Assembly (NCBI RefSeq): GCF_001905005.1
Contig: NZ_LWKZ01000025.1
Coordinates: 372,001 to 436,000 of the forward strand
Direction: 5' to 3'
Source of the DNA: Streptomyces sp. CB02923
Lineage (GTDB): Bacteria; Actinomycetota; Actinomycetes; Streptomycetales; Streptomycetaceae
Length of the DNA stretch: 64,000 bases
How positions within the stretch are numbered: position 1 is the stretch's first letter; the number at the start of each line of letters is the position of its first letter. Of this stretch, positions 1,840 through 44,248 are shown piece after piece. The notes under the pieces were generated by a model. The model had not been told where the DNA came from and did no database searches. It saw only the letters and a list, made by a program, of their open reading frames with translations. Position numbers and translations under genes: made by a program.

Positions 1840-2841
1840 CTAGTGGGCGTCGGCGATGTGCTGCGTACCGATCCGCTTGCGGAAGACCCAGTAGGTCCAG
1901 CCCTGGTAGAGCAGGACGATCGGGGTGGCGATGCCCGCGCACCACGTCATGATCTTCAACGTGTACGCGCTGGACGAGGCGTTGGAGACCGTGAGGTTCC
2001 AGCTGTCGTTCAGCGAGGACGGCATCACGTTCGGGAACAGCGTCAGGAACAGCATCGCGACCACGGCGACGATGGTGACGCCGGAGAACGCGAACGACCA
2101 TCCCTCACGCCCGCGCTGGTTCATCACCAGCCCCGCGGCCAGTGCCACCACGGCGATGACCATCGCGACCAGGCTCTTCGTGTCGCCCTGGTCGAGCTGG
2201 GTCCAGCCCAGGAAGCCGAGCGCCAGCACGGCGGTGACCAGCCCCAGGACCGTCGCCGTCCGGCGGGCCCGGTCGCGGATGCCGCCCAGCGTCTTGAGCG
2301 AGGCGAACACCGCGCCGTGGAAGGTGAACAGGGTCAGCGTGACCAGGCCGCCGAGCAGCGCGTACGGGTTCAGCAGGTCGAGCACGCTGCCGACGTACTC
2401 CTTGTGCGCGTCGATCTGCACACCGCGCACGATGTTGCCGAAGGCCACGCCCCACAGGAACGCGGGGAGCAGCGAGCACCAGAAGATCGCGTGCTCCCAG
2501 TTGCGCTGCCAGCGCTCCTCGCTCCGCTTGACGCGGTACTCGAAGGCGACACCGCGCACGATCAGGCAGAGCAGGATGACCAGCAGCGGCAGGTAGAAGC
2601 CGGAGAAGAGGGTGGCGTACCACTCGGGGAAGGCGGCGAAGGTCGCACCGCCGGCGCTGAGCAGCCACACCTCGTTGCCGTCCCAGACCGGGCCGATCGT
2701 GTTGATCAGGACCCGCCGCTCGCTGCGGTCCCGGGCGAGCAGCTTGGTCAGGACGCCGATGCCGAAGTCGAATCCTTCGAGGAAGAAGTACCCGGTCCAC
2801 AGCACGGCGATGAGTACGAACCAGACGTCATGGAGTTCCAC
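1840..2841 (-). CDS. cydB: Cytochrome bd ubiquinol/menaquinol oxidase subunit II
   Basis: Subunit II of the cytochrome bd terminal oxidase, which reduces O2 to water with quinol electrons under low oxygen. It is 333 residues, the normal CydB length. The N-terminus MELHDVWFVLIAVLW is typical of the family and is followed by the conserved EGFDFG stretch near residues 23-28; the sequence carries about eight to nine hydrophobic segments. It begins 9 bp after the cydA stop, so translation is probably coupled. Expression should follow the Rex-controlled cydA promoter. Confidence 0.96.
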   Translation of the reverse strand: MELHDVWFVLIAVLWTGYFFLEGFDFGIGVLTKLLARDRSERRVLINTIGPVWDGNEVWLLSAGGATFAAFPEWYATLFSGFYLPLLVILLCLIVRGVAFEYRVKRSEERWQRNWEHAIFWCSLLPAFLWGVAFGNIVRGVQIDAHKEYVGSVLDLLNPYALLGGLVTLTLFTFHGAVFASLKTLGGIRDRARRTATVLGLVTAVLALGFLGWTQLDQGDTKSLVAMVIAVVALAAGLVMNQRGREGWSFAFSGVTIVAVVAMLFLTLFPNVMPSSLNDSWNLTVSNASSSAYTLKIMTWCAGIATPIVLLYQGWTYWVFRKRIGTQHIADAH

Positions 2842-2850
2842 GGTCGCCCC

Positions 2851-4359
2851 CTAGTACGAGAAGGCCATCGGCCGGTCGGCGTCCGCGTGGTCGCCGCCGA
2901 TCTTGGTGGGCGGATTGAGGTCGTCGTCCGTCAGCTCCGGCGGCCCGGCCTTGACGTACTTGACCAGCAGCCTCACCTCGATGACCGCGAGCACCGCGTA
3001 CAGCAGGGTGAAGACGGTCATCGACGTGAGCACCTCGCCCTGCGAGACGCCCGGGGAGACCGCGGAGGAGGTCTTCAGGACGCCGTACACGGCCCAGGGC
3101 TGGCGGCCCATCTCGGTGAAGATCCAGCCCCAGGAGTTGGCGATGAGCGGGAAGCCGAGCGTGACGAAGGCCAGGGACCAGTACGCCTTGCTCAGGCGGG
3201 CGCCGAGCACCTTGTTCTTGGTGAGCGCGAGGTTCGGTGGCTCCTCGTCCCCCGTACGCAGCCCCGGCGCGAGCCAGAACTTCTTCCGGGTGAGCCAGAG
3301 CCCGGCCACGCCGATGGCGAACGAGGCCATACCGAAGCCGATCATCCAGCGGAAGCCCCAGTAGGCGACCGGGATGTTGGGCCGGTAGTCACCGGGCCCG
3401 TACTTCTGCTGCTCGGCCTTGTTGACGTCGTTGATGCCGGGGACCGGCGTGGAGAAGTCGTTGTGGGCGAGGAAGGAGAGCAGCCCGGGGATCTCGATGG
3501 CGACCTTGTTGTGGCCCTTGTCCACGTCGCCGTAGGCGAAGACGGAGAACGGCGCGGGGCCTTCCTTGTCCCACAGCGCTTCGGCGGCGGCCATCTTCAT
3601 CGGCTGCTGCCGGAACATGACCTTGCCGAGCTGGTCGCCGCTGATCGCGGTGAGCGCGCCGGCGATGACCAGGGTGACCAGGCCGAGCCGCAGCGAGGTA
3701 CGCATCACCTTGACGTGCTTCTTGCGCATCAGGTGGTACGCGGCGATGCCGACCATGAACGCGGCGCCGGTCAGGAAGGCGGCGGTCAGCGTGTGGAAGA
3801 CGACGACGAGCGTGGTGTCCTGGGTCAGCACCTTCCAGAAGTCGGTCAGCTCGGCGCGGCCGTTGGCGGCGTTGTACTTGTAGCCGACCGGGTGCTGCAT
3901 CCAGGAGTTGGCGGCGAGGATGAAGTACGCCGACAGGATCGTGCCGATCGAGACCATCCACATGCAGAAGCAGTGGATCTTCTTCGGCAGCTTGTCCCAG
4001 CCGAAGATCCACAGTCCGATGAACGTGGACTCGAAGAAGAAGGCGATGAGCGCTTCGAATGCGAGCGGGGCGCCGAAGACGTCACCGACGAACCGCGAGT
4101 AGTCGGACCAGTTCATGCCGAACTGGAACTCCTGGACGATGCCGGTGACGACACCCATCGCGATGTTGATCAGGAAGAGCTTGCCCCAGAACTTGGTGGC
4201 CTTGAGGTACTGCTGCTTGCCCGTCCGCACCCATGCGGTCTCCAGCCCGGCCACCAGGGCGGCAAGGGAGATCGTGAGGGGGACGAAGAGGAAGTGGTAG
4301 ACGGTCGTGATGCCGAATTGCCATCGCGCCAGGGTCTCTGGCGCCAACGCCAGGTCCAC
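2851..4359 (-). CDS. cydA: Cytochrome bd oxidase subunit I
   Basis: Haem-bearing subunit I of cytochrome bd oxidase in the cell membrane. At 502 residues it is the short Q-loop form common in actinobacteria. The N-terminal segment RWQFGITTVYHFLFVPLTI holds the conserved haem-ligand histidine near residue 22, and the family hallmark GRQPW lies in the second half. It has about nine hydrophobic helices. It is the first gene of cydA-cydB-cydCD. A Rex operator sits about 90 bp upstream of the start, so expression is expected to rise when NADH/NAD is high (oxygen limitation), as established for S. coelicolor cydABCD. Confidence 0.97.
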   Translation of the reverse strand: MDLALAPETLARWQFGITTVYHFLFVPLTISLAALVAGLETAWVRTGKQQYLKATKFWGKLFLINIAMGVVTGIVQEFQFGMNWSDYSRFVGDVFGAPLAFEALIAFFFESTFIGLWIFGWDKLPKKIHCFCMWMVSIGTILSAYFILAANSWMQHPVGYKYNAANGRAELTDFWKVLTQDTTLVVVFHTLTAAFLTGAAFMVGIAAYHLMRKKHVKVMRTSLRLGLVTLVIAGALTAISGDQLGKVMFRQQPMKMAAAEALWDKEGPAPFSVFAYGDVDKGHNKVAIEIPGLLSFLAHNDFSTPVPGINDVNKAEQQKYGPGDYRPNIPVAYWGFRWMIGFGMASFAIGVAGLWLTRKKFWLAPGLRTGDEEPPNLALTKNKVLGARLSKAYWSLAFVTLGFPLIANSWGWIFTEMGRQPWAVYGVLKTSSAVSPGVSQGEVLTSMTVFTLLYAVLAVIEVRLLVKYVKAGPPELTDDDLNPPTKIGGDHADADRPMAFSY

Positions 4360-35270: not shown

Positions 35271-35699
35271 ATGCGGATCGGAGAACTGGCCGAGCGAGCG
35301 GGGACCACCACTCGCGCCCTCCGGTACTACGAGGCGCGCGGACTGCTCCATGCCGAGCGCACGGCCAACGGCCACCGTATCTACAGCGAAGCGGACCTGC
35401 GCCTGCTCCAGCAGATCCAGATGCTGCAGCGCTTCGGCTTCGAGCTGGAAGAGACCCGGCCCTTCGTGGAGTGCTTGCGCGCCGGCCACCCCGCGGGTGA
35501 CGCCTGCCCCGCCGCACTCCAGGTCTACCGCCACAAACTGGCCGAGCTGGACGCCTGCATCACCCAACTCCAGGACGTACGGGAACAGGTCGGCAGCCAA
35601 TTGGGCCGCGCCGAACAGGCCCTGAGCGCATTGGCGAACGCGTCCGCCCAGCCCGGCGGCCCCCATCCGCGATGCGAACTGAGCCGCCCCGACAGCTGA
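35271..35699 (+). CDS. MerR-family regulator
   Basis: MerR-type regulator of 142 residues. The winged helix is MRIGELAERAGTTTRALRYYEARGLL; a long dimerisation helix follows from about residue 80. The C-terminal part has two cysteines (DACPAAL, LDACITQ) that might bind a ligand, but the pattern does not match CueR or ZntR. GGGGGCGGAC precedes the ATG. It may control itself or the divergent serine hydrolase. Confidence 0.9.
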   Translation: MRIGELAERAGTTTRALRYYEARGLLHAERTANGHRIYSEADLRLLQQIQMLQRFGFELEETRPFVECLRAGHPAGDACPAALQVYRHKLAELDACITQLQDVREQVGSQLGRAEQALSALANASAQPGGPHPRCELSRPDS

Positions 35700-35731: not shown

Positions 35732-36409
35732 TCACCCCAGCATCGCGATGGCTCTGCCGAGGCTGTCCTGCTCTTCCTCCGGGAGCCATCGCGCCGCATG
35801 AACTATGTGCAGCGCCGAGCGGAGCCGGGTTCGGTCCTCTTCGGAGCCGAGATCGCCCAGATACGCGGGCAGGATCAGCCCCAACGCCTTGAGATCGCGA
35901 CGCGCGCACAGCTTGGCCAGCAGCTCTGCCAGCAACGCGCTCACAGCTCCGAATGCCTCCCGCCCTCCCCGCGACTCGTCGTCCGCCGGTGCGGCAGCCG
36001 TCTCCCGCAGCCCTTCCGCGATGGCGAACCGGTTCCATGCCCCGTAGTCGCCGCCGGGCGCGCCCCGTACCTCCTCTGCGGCCCGGGTGAAGTACCCGTG
36101 TGCCAGAGCCGTATCGCCCAGCTCTCGGTGGGCACGCGCCATGTTCGCGTACAGAGAGGCGTAGAACCCGCTGACGCGTTCGTCACCCACCCGGTCCGCG
36201 CGGTCCAGGCACTCCTGGTTCCACCGGAGTGTGTCCTCCGGCGTGTCCTGATGCCGGGCCACGTAATGAGCAGCGATACACGCTTCGTAGTCGTCGCCCG
36301 CGTCCTGCCAGGCCGACAAGAACAGCCGACGTGCTGCGTCGTCCTCGCCGCGTGCCTCGGCTTCCATTCCTCGTACGCACAGCCGCACCACATGGTTCGC
36401 CGCATCCAC
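35732..36409 (-). CDS. Helical-repeat (TPR-like) protein downstream of the MerR-clamp gene
   Basis: Mostly alpha-helical protein of 225 residues with TPR-like segments (DYEACIAAHYVARHQ, LYANMARAHRELGDTALAHGYF). No catalytic motif seen. GTG 36409 is chosen because GGGGGAG stands 8 nt upstream; GTG 36436, within a parS site, would also be in frame. It begins 13 bp after the stop of the MerR-clamp gene, so both are very probably one transcript and the proteins may act together. Function unknown. Confidence 0.72.
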   Translation of the reverse strand: MDAANHVVRLCVRGMEAEARGEDDAARRLFLSAWQDAGDDYEACIAAHYVARHQDTPEDTLRWNQECLDRADRVGDERVSGFYASLYANMARAHRELGDTALAHGYFTRAAEEVRGAPGGDYGAWNRFAIAEGLRETAAAPADDESRGGREAFGAVSALLAELLAKLCARRDLKALGLILPAYLGDLGSEEDRTRLRSALHIVHAARWLPEEEQDSLGRAIAMLG

Positions 36410-36422
36410 GTCCCGCTCCCCC

Positions 36423-37538
36423 TCAGTCTGTTTCACGTGAAACAAGCTCCTGCACCGGCATGACCAGAGTCGTGAAGCTGCCTTGGTCAGCGGAACGCAC
36501 GACCACCGGCTCCCTACCGGACGCGATCTCCAGCAACACGTCGGGCCCCACACTCGCGTCCAGAGCAGGGACGAGCACCGCCGGATCGAAGGCCACGCGC
36601 AGCGACGGCCCCGTACAGACCGCGCCCATCACGGCCGGAGGTCCCCCGCCACCACTGACGACGACCTCTTGAGCTCCGGCTCGCGCCGTGAGCACGGCGC
36701 CTCTTCCGCGCTCGGCGAAGGCTTCGCGGAGCGCCGCCCGGTCCACGATGACGCGATGCCGAGCGTCCCCCAGTACGTCCAGCACCACCTGGTAATCGGG
36801 AAACGTCCCCGCACAGCTCGCGAAAGCGCGGCGCTCCCCGCCCTCCCCGACCAGGCGCCCTTTCCCGACCAGGCACCCTTTATCGCCGTCCACCTCGATG
36901 TCGATGTGCGGCTGTCGTACCGCCCACGCCGCCATGCCCGCCAGTTCCCCGGCTTCGACAAGAACCCGGCACGGTTCACCGCCTGCCGACCCCGCCCGCA
37001 GCACCCGAACCGCCAACCGGTACCGGTCGGTGGCCACCAACCGCACTTCACCGTCGCCGAGTTCGAGGAGCACGCAGCCGAGGACCGGGAACTCCGCACG
37101 GGTCTCGGCCTCCGCGACCGCTGGTCCCACCTGCCGTACTGCGCTGGCCAGCTCCGCACCCCCGACACCCGCCCATCCGCGGGGCTGCTGCGGAGCCTCC
37201 GCCGGAAGCTCACGCAGCATTTCCTCGACCAACGCCCGTGCAGCATCCGCTGTCTGCCGAGTCCGCTCCAGGTGCGCGCGGAGCACCGTACGAGCCTCCG
37301 CCTCACCCCCGTCGAGTACGACCCCGGCGTCCACCAGTGGCAGCCCCGCCTCCCGCAGCCTGCGAAGCCGTACGGCACGGGTCTCCTGCTCCACTCCGTA
37401 GAACCGGTAGCCGCTCGCCGGATCGACCCTGACGGGACGCAGGACGCCGCAGTCGTCGTAGAAGCGCAGCGCGCTCGGCGCCAGGCCCACCCGCCGAGCG
37501 AACGCCCCGATGCCCAGCAGCTCTTGGCTTTCGTCCAT
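36423..37538 (-). CDS. MerR regulator fused to DNA polymerase III beta-clamp-like domains
   Basis: Unusual fusion, 371 residues. Residues 1-75 are a MerR winged helix (IGAFARRVGLAPSALRFYDD) and 75-115 a helix. Residues about 125-371 resemble clamp domains II and III: GAELASAVRQVGPAVA, then the DnaN hallmark LVATDRYRLAVRV, FPDYQVVLDVL, and a C-terminal FTTLVMPVQ like the LLMPVRL end of DnaN. Clamp domain I appears replaced by the MerR part. The last codons (VSRETD) are written over a parS site. Downstream is the TPR-like gene; upstream, 69 bp away, a YunG-like gene on the same strand. Role unknown. Confidence 0.85.
   Translation of the reverse strand: MDESQELLGIGAFARRVGLAPSALRFYDDCGVLRPVRVDPASGYRFYGVEQETRAVRLRRLREAGLPLVDAGVVLDGGEAEARTVLRAHLERTRQTADAARALVEEMLRELPAEAPQQPRGWAGVGGAELASAVRQVGPAVAEAETRAEFPVLGCVLLELGDGEVRLVATDRYRLAVRVLRAGSAGGEPCRVLVEAGELAGMAAWAVRQPHIDIEVDGDKGCLVGKGRLVGEGGERRAFASCAGTFPDYQVVLDVLGDARHRVIVDRAALREAFAERGRGAVLTARAGAQEVVVSGGGGPPAVMGAVCTGPSLRVAFDPAVLVPALDASVGPDVLLEIASGREPVVVRSADQGSFTTLVMPVQELVSRETD
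36430..36443. other. parS: parS centromere site 4
   Basis: Perfect GTTTCACGTGAAAC that encodes the last residues (VSRET) of the MerR-clamp fusion and lies 21 bp before the likely start of the TPR-like gene. Confidence 0.93.
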
Positions 37539-37607
37539 GCCCGCGATTGTGGGACTTCGAGCAACTCGAAGGTCAAAACCGACCCAGTGGAGCTACGCCT
37601 TCACCAC

Positions 37608-38006
37608 CTACACAGGTGTCCGTCCGAGCGCACTCCAGACGCGTCCGCGCAGGAGTTCGTACTCCTCGCCCCGACGCGGCAGCCGGCCTGTCGGCCGGGG
37701 TACGGCCCGACCGTCGGACACCACCTGGCCCCGCCGGAACTGCTCTCGGGTGAGGTCGATCTCGATGCCGCTGGAGAGCCGGTTCCACCAGTGGTGACCG
37801 TGCTGTTCCCCGTGGAGATGCACTTCACCGACCATGAGTTCACCGCAGAAGAAGTCGTGCACGACGAGAGCGGTGATGTCGCAGTGGCCCCAAGCGGGAT
37901 TGTCGACGGTCCAGGGGGCACGGGCGACATCGTCGGCGGAACACGTGTCCGCGGCCCAGCCCGCGCGCACCGCCTTCGTGATGTCGGTAAGCGTCCAAGG
38001 AATCAT
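37608..38006 (-). CDS. YunG-like protein
   Basis: Small protein of about 132 residues resembling the YunG family: an N-terminal segment DITKAVRAGWAADTCSADD, then WGHCDITALVVHDFFCGEL with a conserved Cys/His, and HHWWNRLSSGIEIDLTREQF. The Cys-His-Asp pattern is reminiscent of NlpC/transglutaminase-like folds, but activity is unknown. ATG 38006 is a provisional start; ATG 38018 is equally possible. It is in the same orientation as the MerR-clamp gene 69 bp downstream. Confidence 0.72.
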   Translation of the reverse strand: MIPWTLTDITKAVRAGWAADTCSADDVARAPWTVDNPAWGHCDITALVVHDFFCGELMVGEVHLHGEQHGHHWWNRLSSGIEIDLTREQFRRGQVVSDGRAVPRPTGRLPRRGEEYELLRGRVWSALGRTPV

Positions 38007-38082
38007 GCGGTGCAGCATTCCAGCGACCACTGACAACACCGTCCAGCGGAGGAGTGGCCAGGCGATCAGCTCAGTGGGACGC

Positions 38083-42910: not shown

Positions 42911-44248
42911 ATGACACAGGCTCCCGCGACGCCGCGGCGCACCGACCGCCGCCACGACCGCGAGATCATCTCGCTCGCTCTGCCCGCCTTCGGCGCGCTC
43001 GTCGCGGAACCGCTCTTCCTCATGGTCGACAGCGCCGTCATCGGCCACCTCGGCACCCGGCAGCTCGCCGGGCTCGGCGTCGCCGGTCCGCTGCTGACGA
43101 CCGCGGTCTCGGTCTTCGTCTTCCTCGCGTACGCCACCACGGCCGCTGTCGCGCGGCGGGTCGGAGCCGGCGACCGCTCCGCCGCCATCCGGCAGGGCAT
43201 GGACGGTATCTGGCTCGCCCTGCTGCTGGGCGCCGCCGTACTCGCCGCCGTCCTGCCCACCGCACCCTGGCTCGTCGACCTCTTCGGCGCCTCCGCCACC
43301 GCCGCCCCGCACGCCATCACCTACCTGCGCATCAGCGCCCTCGGCATTCCGGCGATGCTCGTGGTGCTCGCGGCCACCGGCGTACTGCGCGGCCTCCAGG
43401 ACACCCGTACGCCGCTGTACGTCGCGATCGGCGGCTTCTCCGTCAACGCGGTTCTGAACGTCGCACTGGTCTACGGCGCCGGGCTCGGCATCGCCGGCTC
43501 CGCCTGGGGAACGGTCATCGCCCAGTGCGGCATGGCCGCCGTCTACCTGGTCGTCGTGGTGCGGGGCGCACGCCGGCACGGCGCTTCCCTCCGGCCGGAC
43601 GTCGCCGGAATCCGTGCCTGTGCCCAGGCCGGCGTGCCGCTGCTGGTACGTACGCTCTCGCTGCGCGCCGTCCTGATGATCGCGACCGCCGTCGCCGCCC
43701 GCCTCGGCGACGCGGAGGTGGCCGCCCACCAGGTCGTCATCACCCTATGGTCCCTGCTGGCCTTCGCCCTGGACGCCATCGCCATCGCCGGTCAGGCGAT
43801 CATCGGCCGCTACCTGGGCGCCGACGACGTGGCGGGCGCCAAGGCGGCCTGCCGCCGCATGGTGCAGTGGGGCATCGCCTCCGGCCTGGTCCTCGGCCTG
43901 CTCGTCGTGCTCACGCGGCCGCTGTTCATGCCACTGTTCACCGCCGACCCGGCCGTCAAGGACGCGCTGCTGCCCGCGCTCCTGGTCGTCGCCCTCACCC
44001 AGCCGGTCGCCGGCATCGTCTTCGTCCTCGACGGTGTGCTCATGGGCGCCGGCGACGGCCCCTACCTGGCCTGGGCGATGCTCGTGACGCTGGCTCTCTT
44101 CGCCCCCGCCGCGCTGCTGGTACCGGTCTTCGGCGGCGGCCTCACCGCCCTGTGGTGGGCCATGGCCCTGATGATGACCGTGCGGATGGTGACATTGTGG
44201 GCACGCACCCGGTCGGGCCGATGGATTGTGACCGGAGCCTCGCGTTGA
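42911..44248 (+). CDS. MATE-family efflux transporter (DinF-like)
   Basis: Multidrug and toxic-compound extrusion protein, 445 residues, twelve hydrophobic helices. Family stretches are LALPAFGALVAEPLFLMVDSAVIGHLG near the start and VLRGLQDTRTPLYV in the middle, with the second half repeating the first. It should exchange cationic or other drugs for H+ or Na+. The ATG follows the last DnaA-like box. It is the gene neighbouring dnaB and rplI in S. coelicolor as well. Confidence 0.92.
   Translation: MTQAPATPRRTDRRHDREIISLALPAFGALVAEPLFLMVDSAVIGHLGTRQLAGLGVAGPLLTTAVSVFVFLAYATTAAVARRVGAGDRSAAIRQGMDGIWLALLLGAAVLAAVLPTAPWLVDLFGASATAAPHAITYLRISALGIPAMLVVLAATGVLRGLQDTRTPLYVAIGGFSVNAVLNVALVYGAGLGIAGSAWGTVIAQCGMAAVYLVVVVRGARRHGASLRPDVAGIRACAQAGVPLLVRTLSLRAVLMIATAVAARLGDAEVAAHQVVITLWSLLAFALDAIAIAGQAIIGRYLGADDVAGAKAACRRMVQWGIASGLVLGLLVVLTRPLFMPLFTADPAVKDALLPALLVVALTQPVAGIVFVLDGVLMGAGDGPYLAWAMLVTLALFAPAALLVPVFGGGLTALWWAMALMMTVRMVTLWARTRSGRWIVTGASR

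Follow-up and report, generated by a model that had tools for sequence, protein, structure and literature searches.

A MerR-family regulator fused to beta-clamp domains II and III in Streptomyces: a possible autoregulated sensor of clamp-binding ligands

Regulators of the TipA class are transcribed from an autogenous promoter, and TipA also gives rise to a product consisting of the ligand domain alone, which traps the drug, as described in the available portions of PMC7762955 and PMC6078987; the ligand domains TipAS and AlbAS are helical according to the accessible part of the latter. A spacer of 19-20 bp that contains a palindrome is given as the hallmark of MerR target promoters in the accessible text of PMC9909328. 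Griselimycin and mycoplanecin bind the pocket of the beta clamp DnaN, and their clusters carry the extra dnaN genes griR and mypR (PMC10817943, in the sections available). Full-text literature searches returned no title or abstract opening in which we recognised a MerR-clamp fusion, or a transcription factor that senses through a fragment of the replication clamp. Here we describe a gene whose product joins a MerR head to two domains of a beta clamp. It lies in a window of 64,000 nucleotides, the whole stretch of DNA that was analysed, from Streptomyces sp. CB02923 (contig NZ_LWKZ01000025.1, positions 372,001 to 436,000).

Architecture and predicted fold

The gene and the parts of its product are as follows.

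36423..37538, minus strand: MerR/beta-clamp fusion gene, 371 amino acids, subfamily A (open reading frame, Pfam, TIGR00663, phmmer, AlphaFold, VIA-align)
37323..37514, minus strand: MerR winged helix-turn-helix, residues 9-72 (Pfam MerR_1, 5e-10)
37212..37304, minus strand: predicted MerR dimerisation helix, residues 79-109 (AlphaFold secondary structure)
36447..37184, minus strand: beta-clamp domains II and III, residues 119-364 (VIA-align Z 28.4, pocket mapping)

The initial annotation had proposed that a MerR helix-turn-helix is fused here to DnaN-like domains II and III, and this is borne out by Pfam, TIGR00663, AlphaFold and VIA-align. At the N-terminus the Pfam profiles MerR_1 and MerR score 39.7 and 34.3 bits against cut-offs of 21.6 and 28.2 respectively. 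DNA_pol3_beta_2 matches residues 127-194 (1e-6, 29.5 bits, cut-off 27), and the match of DNA_pol3_beta_3 to the C-terminus is weak (0.012) and under its cut-off. The dnaN profile TIGR00663 aligns its positions 133-366 of 367 with residues 128-362 (4e-11), at a score so far under the equivalog cut-off that the protein is to be regarded as a clamp relative and not as DnaN. A phmmer search of the PDB finds beta clamps at 1e-9. The same genome has a separate dnaN-like match at C25:452706-453428, which is 29% identical over fusion residues 109-348; its own dnaN lies some 17 kb past the right end of the window.

The AlphaFold model, for which 66 family sequences (alignment A1) served as input, has a pLDDT of 91.7, and Foldseek ranks clamps first when queried with it (3p16, 1.7e-19). 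In the best VIA-align row, residues 119-364 superimpose on clamp residues 133-400 with Z 28.4 and an rmsd of 2.0 Å over 230 aligned residues, so that the comparison with DnaN called for at the outset ends in a match to clamp domains II and III and not in an unrelated fold. This ligand-domain region is strand-rich in the model. Clamp domain I is absent, with the MerR part in its place in both the TIGR00663 alignment and VIA-align, and the fusion is thus without the three clamp domains per chain that DnaN has. Dimerisation of the MerR type, likewise suggested initially, is supported by the helix predicted at residues 79-109, which is presumably the MerR dimerisation helix. Homologues of the same architecture occur in many genomes, and the fusion is therefore not an assembly artefact.

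Family, promoter and neighbouring genes

Matches at E≤1e-20 were found in 65 of 150 sampled Streptomyces genomes, a few of them fragments or the MerR part alone. At the level of the order 86 of 197 genomes match at E≤1e-15, with many weaker matches spanning the MerR part only, and at the level of the class a profile cut of 1e-60 retains 27 of 296 genomes and 11 of 114 genera. A contig scan for close relatives returned one, from S. xanthophaeus. The family falls into three subfamilies: A, which includes the window gene and is 50-79% identical to the window protein, B (35-40%) and C (32-37%). In a tree built from 46 clamp parts, A groups with B (100/99) and the C members with each other (100/99), and 13 DnaN all fall to the same side of a branch (82/68); a single fusion event would be compatible with this tree, at weak support. 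Over 12 pairs the clamp part has a dN/dS of 0.21-0.48, above that of the MerR part in every pair. Broken or shortened fusion or partner genes are seen at L023, L076 and L099, which suggests decay of the module in some genomes.

Two paralogues in the same genome (L002, L003) were rejected as family members, their MerR parts being followed, by eye, by PP2C-like and GyrI-like tails and no clamp. A search of viral sequences gave 11 IMG/VR loci and 4 phage records as relatives. The one viral locus that was read, L196, was rejected as a viral fusion since by eye it encodes a three-domain clamp, in a full-length gene at 2769-3905 with the pocket motif TDRYR.

Upstream of the fusion gene are two predicted control elements.

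37546..37576, minus strand: predicted MerR-type promoter, with TTGACC at 37571-37576, a 19-bp spacer and CACAAT at 37546-37551, 7 nt before the ATG
37555..37571, minus strand: dyad CTTCGAG-TTG-CTCGAAG, predicted to be the fusion protein's operator (sequence pattern)

The same arrangement of TTGACC, dyad-bearing 19-bp spacer and -10-like hexamer precedes the fusion gene in A, B and C, and members outside Streptomyces also carry the promoter motif; an autogenous promoter as in the TipA class is present by motif. TTGAC[CT][CT]TC occurs near the fusion start at 81 of 84 loci, the misses being a one-base variant (L076), a broken gene (L023) and a locus where the motif is visible outside the scanned stretch (L166). 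It ends 8-17 nt ahead of the first matched codon in 32 genomes out of 36 and 37-111 nt ahead of it in the other four, in which the match starts within the protein or the gene start is uncertain. The dyad reads CTTCRAG/CTTGAAG in A and B and CCTCGAC/GTCGAGG in C. It scores at least 5 of 7 at 21/28 A, 16/20 B and 20/20 C loci and, outside Streptomyces, at 5/5 C-like, 1/7 B-like and 0/1 A-like loci; 561 of 5000 random windows reach that score.

When 36 genomes (12 A, 12 B and 12 C) were searched with the pattern of their own subfamily, allowing up to 2 mismatches, 36 of the 37 sites returned were at the fusion's own promoter. The patterns were built from these promoters, so the finding lies in the near-absence of other sites and not in the promoter match itself, and weaker or different targets would escape them. 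Reversed-pattern controls gave 0 sites in the same 36 genomes. On this pattern evidence the fusion seems to control mainly its own operon. The sole operator-like site away from a fusion promoter is at G111:C45:28063-28093, with 2 mismatches.

Two further features lie at the 3' end of the gene.

35732..36409, minus strand: TPR-like partner gene, 225 amino acids from an inferred GTG start, which follows the stop codon of the fusion by 13 nt
36430..36443, no strand assigned: parS site GTTTCACGTGAAAC inside the last codons of the fusion gene, an exact match, probably incidental

The existence of the coupled TPR-like gene reported downstream is confirmed, and subfamilies A and B, though not C, conserve the coupling. 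Counted as an open frame on the same strand that overlaps the end of the fusion gene or lies at most 134 nt from it, the partner was found at 20/20 B, 23/30 A and 0/20 C loci, and outside Streptomyces at 7/8 A- or B-like and 0/6 C-like loci. The profile was built from 21 proteins of the same loci (12 B, 8 A and the window); with those loci left out, the partner is present at 8/8 B and 14/21 A loci. Among the B partners, L094 matched only at 7e-4 and L099 in pieces, and the profile search gave no match at the A loci L067, L068, L069, L070, L082, L052 and L053. The model of the partner is helical and TPR-like (pLDDT 91.6); a comparison of its fold with the PDB gave nothing at E≤0.001, the weaker matches being mostly TPR or other helical repeats, and no clamp-binding motif was seen in it by eye. 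Nine matches come from plasmids. The three plasmid copies examined all carry fusion, partner and operator, and the annotation of the fusion says no more than 'MerR family transcriptional regulator'; one copy sits between transposase genes.

The parS site said to encode the C-terminus is indeed exact, but it is not conserved. An exact parS starting 18 nt before the stop codon occurs in 3 of 70 genes scanned (the window gene, L065 and L066), or 2 of the 69 others; it probably reflects no more than a region rich in parS, and was rejected as a part of the system. There are eight exact parS sites in the window (at 1762, 32095, 32136, 36430, 46005, 51544, 58564 and 58600), with an expectation of 0.08 at up to 2 mismatches, and two pairs are only 36-41 bp apart. 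L075, L051 and L054 have exact parS inside the fusion gene at other positions, with two sites each in L051 and L054.

Around the module, an ordinary MerR regulator (Pfam MerR_1 and MerR-DNA-bind; 35271-35699, plus strand) converges on the TPR-like gene about 30 bases from its end, and a YunG-like gene (Pfam YunG, 7e-37; 37608-38039, minus strand) lies directly upstream of the fusion promoter. The window's oriC-proximal neighbours, dnaB-like by eye, are common to 10-11 of 22 compared A stretches. A 445-residue frame, MATE-like by eye (window 42911-44248), recurs near 10 A loci, 3.4-7.6 kb from the fusion and on the opposite strand, probably through shared synteny. Neighbour clustering gave no broad shared neighbourhood for B and C loci at the threshold used, and no cluster besides the fusion itself in more than 4 of 20 C loci. 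Compared mainly by clustering, the neighbours brought to light no link to a clamp-targeting compound or a resistance gene, and no gene cluster of the griselimycin or mycoplanecin kind was identified beside the fusion. PADLOC made no convincing defence assignment, with weak matches to window proteins; one C member matches mad1 (1e-8) over residues 1-50, which are its helix-turn-helix.

Pocket, ring interface and internal start

Pocket and interface residues were taken from the available part of PMC11139829 and mapped through an alignment to E. coli DnaN (L146) that also took in the genome's own DnaN and 11 actinobacterial DnaN. In E. coli numbering, L155, T172, R176, P242, M362 and P363 are present in 100% of A, B and C, and Y175 and L360 are retained across the family at 0.92 and 0.85. 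The window protein keeps L153, T170, Y173, R174, P247, L358 and M360 of subsite I and P361 of subsite II. R152 and R246 are altered in the fusions and likewise in the genome's own DnaN, with R at 246 in C, and position 247 is variable among the fusions. Subsite II is mostly kept in C and altered in A and B: N320 is D in A, mostly E in B and 89% N in C; Y323 is V in A, T in B and F or Y in C; and R365 is 84% R in C. Canonical clamp motifs may therefore bind poorly to A and B.

Entropy over the 12 columns of subsite I is 0.71, against 1.84 for 235 ungapped clamp columns (permutation p 5e-5). In a baseline-controlled comparison of 55 positions that are fixed in at least 11 of 12 DnaN, retention is 0.69 over the 14 pocket positions and 0.50 over the 41 others (p 0.04), 7 of the 14 being kept under 90%. 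At this p value the claim is a moderate one, and we conclude, with moderate confidence, that subsite I of the partner pocket appears largely kept in the fusion family.

The ring interface presents a different picture from DnaN. Eight positions of domain III, seven named in the available part of PMC11139829 and position 269 added by us, have 4% identity to the actinobacterial DnaN consensus and 37% gaps, in an alignment that is uncertain near the shortened segment and at positions that also vary among DnaN. Around E. coli I272/L273 the fusions have a shorter stretch or a gap, with gaps spanning about E. coli 270-277. Residues matching E. coli K198, R205 and R269, which are presumably DNA-facing channel residues, are changed in the fusions. 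The DnaN consensus is basic at 23 non-pocket positions, some of them presumably DNA-facing, and 5 of the 23 are retained at ≥0.67; mean similarity at the 23 is 0.30, compared with 0.42 for all ungapped columns (p 0.036). The missing domain I, the changed interface and the loss of basic positions argue against a ring without proving the point, and the clamp ring was probably lost in the fusion.

At the MerR/clamp junction, 18 of 20 subfamily C genes have a Shine-Dalgarno sequence with an ATG or GTG, from which a clamp-only protein of 229-257 residues would be made. The Shine-Dalgarno codon is AGG in 15 of these 18, CGG in 2 and AAG in 1; the C rows are related, so the 15 are not independent events. 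AGG makes up 3.4% of Arg codons elsewhere in the same genes. The signal is missing from L109, which has a GTG further downstream, and from L124. Five C-like loci outside Streptomyces were scanned, with the signal in L168 alone and none in L150/L134, L165, L166 and L167. No conserved internal start was found in A or B, the window gene included. The nearest predicted downstream gene is on the opposite strand at 12 of 20 C loci.

Possible function and comparison with described systems

Sequence and prediction support the architecture, the kept subsite I, the changed ring interface, the form of the promoter and its near-uniqueness in each genome, the TPR coupling and the internal start signal of C, whereas operator binding, ligand, activation, sequestration and the part played by the TPR-like protein are inferred. 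The TipA precedent, taken with the binding of griselimycin and mycoplanecin in the DnaN pocket, points to a sensor of clamp ligands that in C would double as a sponge. We lean, with some reserve, towards a TipA-like autoregulated sensor whose ligands would bind the clamp, for example antibiotics of the griselimycin type or foreign peptides; in C the protein would probably also act as a sponge. Such a MerR-family autoregulator would use the beta-clamp II-III module as its ligand-binding domain and would sit as a dimer on the dyad in its own promoter, within the 19-bp spacer. Entry of a ligand into the pocket, be it a peptide that binds clamps or a natural product resembling griselimycin, would set off the distortion usual for MerR proteins and turn the operon on, and the extra fusion protein would titrate the ligand by binding it and thereby shield the real DnaN, in the way that TipAL/TipAS acts on thiopeptides. 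The clamp-only form from the internal start would be the titrating product in C, and the usually co-encoded TPR-like protein could be a second output in A and B. A phage protein or a peptide of the cell would be an equally plausible ligand. If the ligand reading is true, the module offers a ready-made reporter for clamp-targeting antibiotics and is a natural case of a drug target turned into a resistance sensor; it opens the testable question of which natural molecules threaten the clamp.

Other readings draw on the same observations. It is possible, and we suggest it tentatively, that the module is a target-mimic defence switch, in which a copy of the pocket on a DNA-binding head detects clamp-attacking antibiotics or phage proteins and then floods the cell with decoy pieces of the clamp; this would add the TPR-like protein as an effector in A and B, with copies of the module on plasmids. 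A sensor of replication state, with the pocket binding clamp motifs of the cell's own replisome and repair proteins and the level of free partner setting operon expression, would suit a canonical pocket core that is kept in all subfamilies, a subsite II that is mostly kept in C, and oriC-proximal neighbours shared by about half of the A loci (10-11/22). We nevertheless think it unlikely, because the patchy presence (65/150) and the plasmid copies better fit an accessory trait, B and C show no broad shared neighbourhood at the threshold used, and subsite II has drifted in A and B.

We give little credence to the clamp module being a dedicated protein-protein site for the TPR partner, as co-regulator or anti-activator: the coupled gene is conserved in A, B and three plasmid copies, yet it has no match at 20/20 C and 7/30 A loci, and it is C that keeps the pocket best. 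Still less credible is the view that the clamp fragment just serves as a scaffold in an otherwise ordinary MerR regulator, with the true ligand bound at another site. The higher dN/dS of the clamp part in 12/12 pairs would fit this reading, but conservation concentrates in subsite I, and the internal start of C would keep the clamp part as a separate product. The trimeric or DNA-encircling ring raised in the initial annotation finds no support in the sequence. Two clamp domains per chain, as in PCNA, in a model of pLDDT 91.7 could suggest a clamp-like ring or trimer on DNA, but domain I is absent, the interface stretch is shortened and changed, several basic residues are lost and the MerR part predicts a dimer on the operator, and we regard a ring as highly improbable.

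Compared with TipA of Streptomyces lividans (TipAL/TipAS), as portrayed in the available literature excerpts, the fusion has the same plan of an N-terminal MerR helix-turn-helix, a C-terminal ligand domain and an autogenous promoter. In subfamily C alone the likeness would extend to an internal start giving the ligand domain by itself, on the strength of the sequence signal. It differs in that its ligand domain is a strand-rich beta-clamp II-III module and not the helical TipAS, and in that A and B usually co-encode a TPR-like protein. With BmrR-type MerR proteins, which have a GyrI-like ligand domain, it shares the MerR part and a promoter with a dyad in a 19-bp spacer (PMC9909328, in the part available); in contrast, its ligand domain has the clamp fold, and the patterns used brought up no recurrent target other than its own promoter. 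DnaN and the fusion have in common domains II and III, pocket subsite I and a C-terminal MP motif, whereas the fusion has MerR in place of domain I and ring-interface residues that are changed or missing. GriR and MypR, finally, are like the fusion in being extra clamp-derived proteins plausibly linked to clamp-targeting compounds (PMC10817943, in the sections available); they are DnaN proteins, however, and the fusion is a regulator with two clamp domains.
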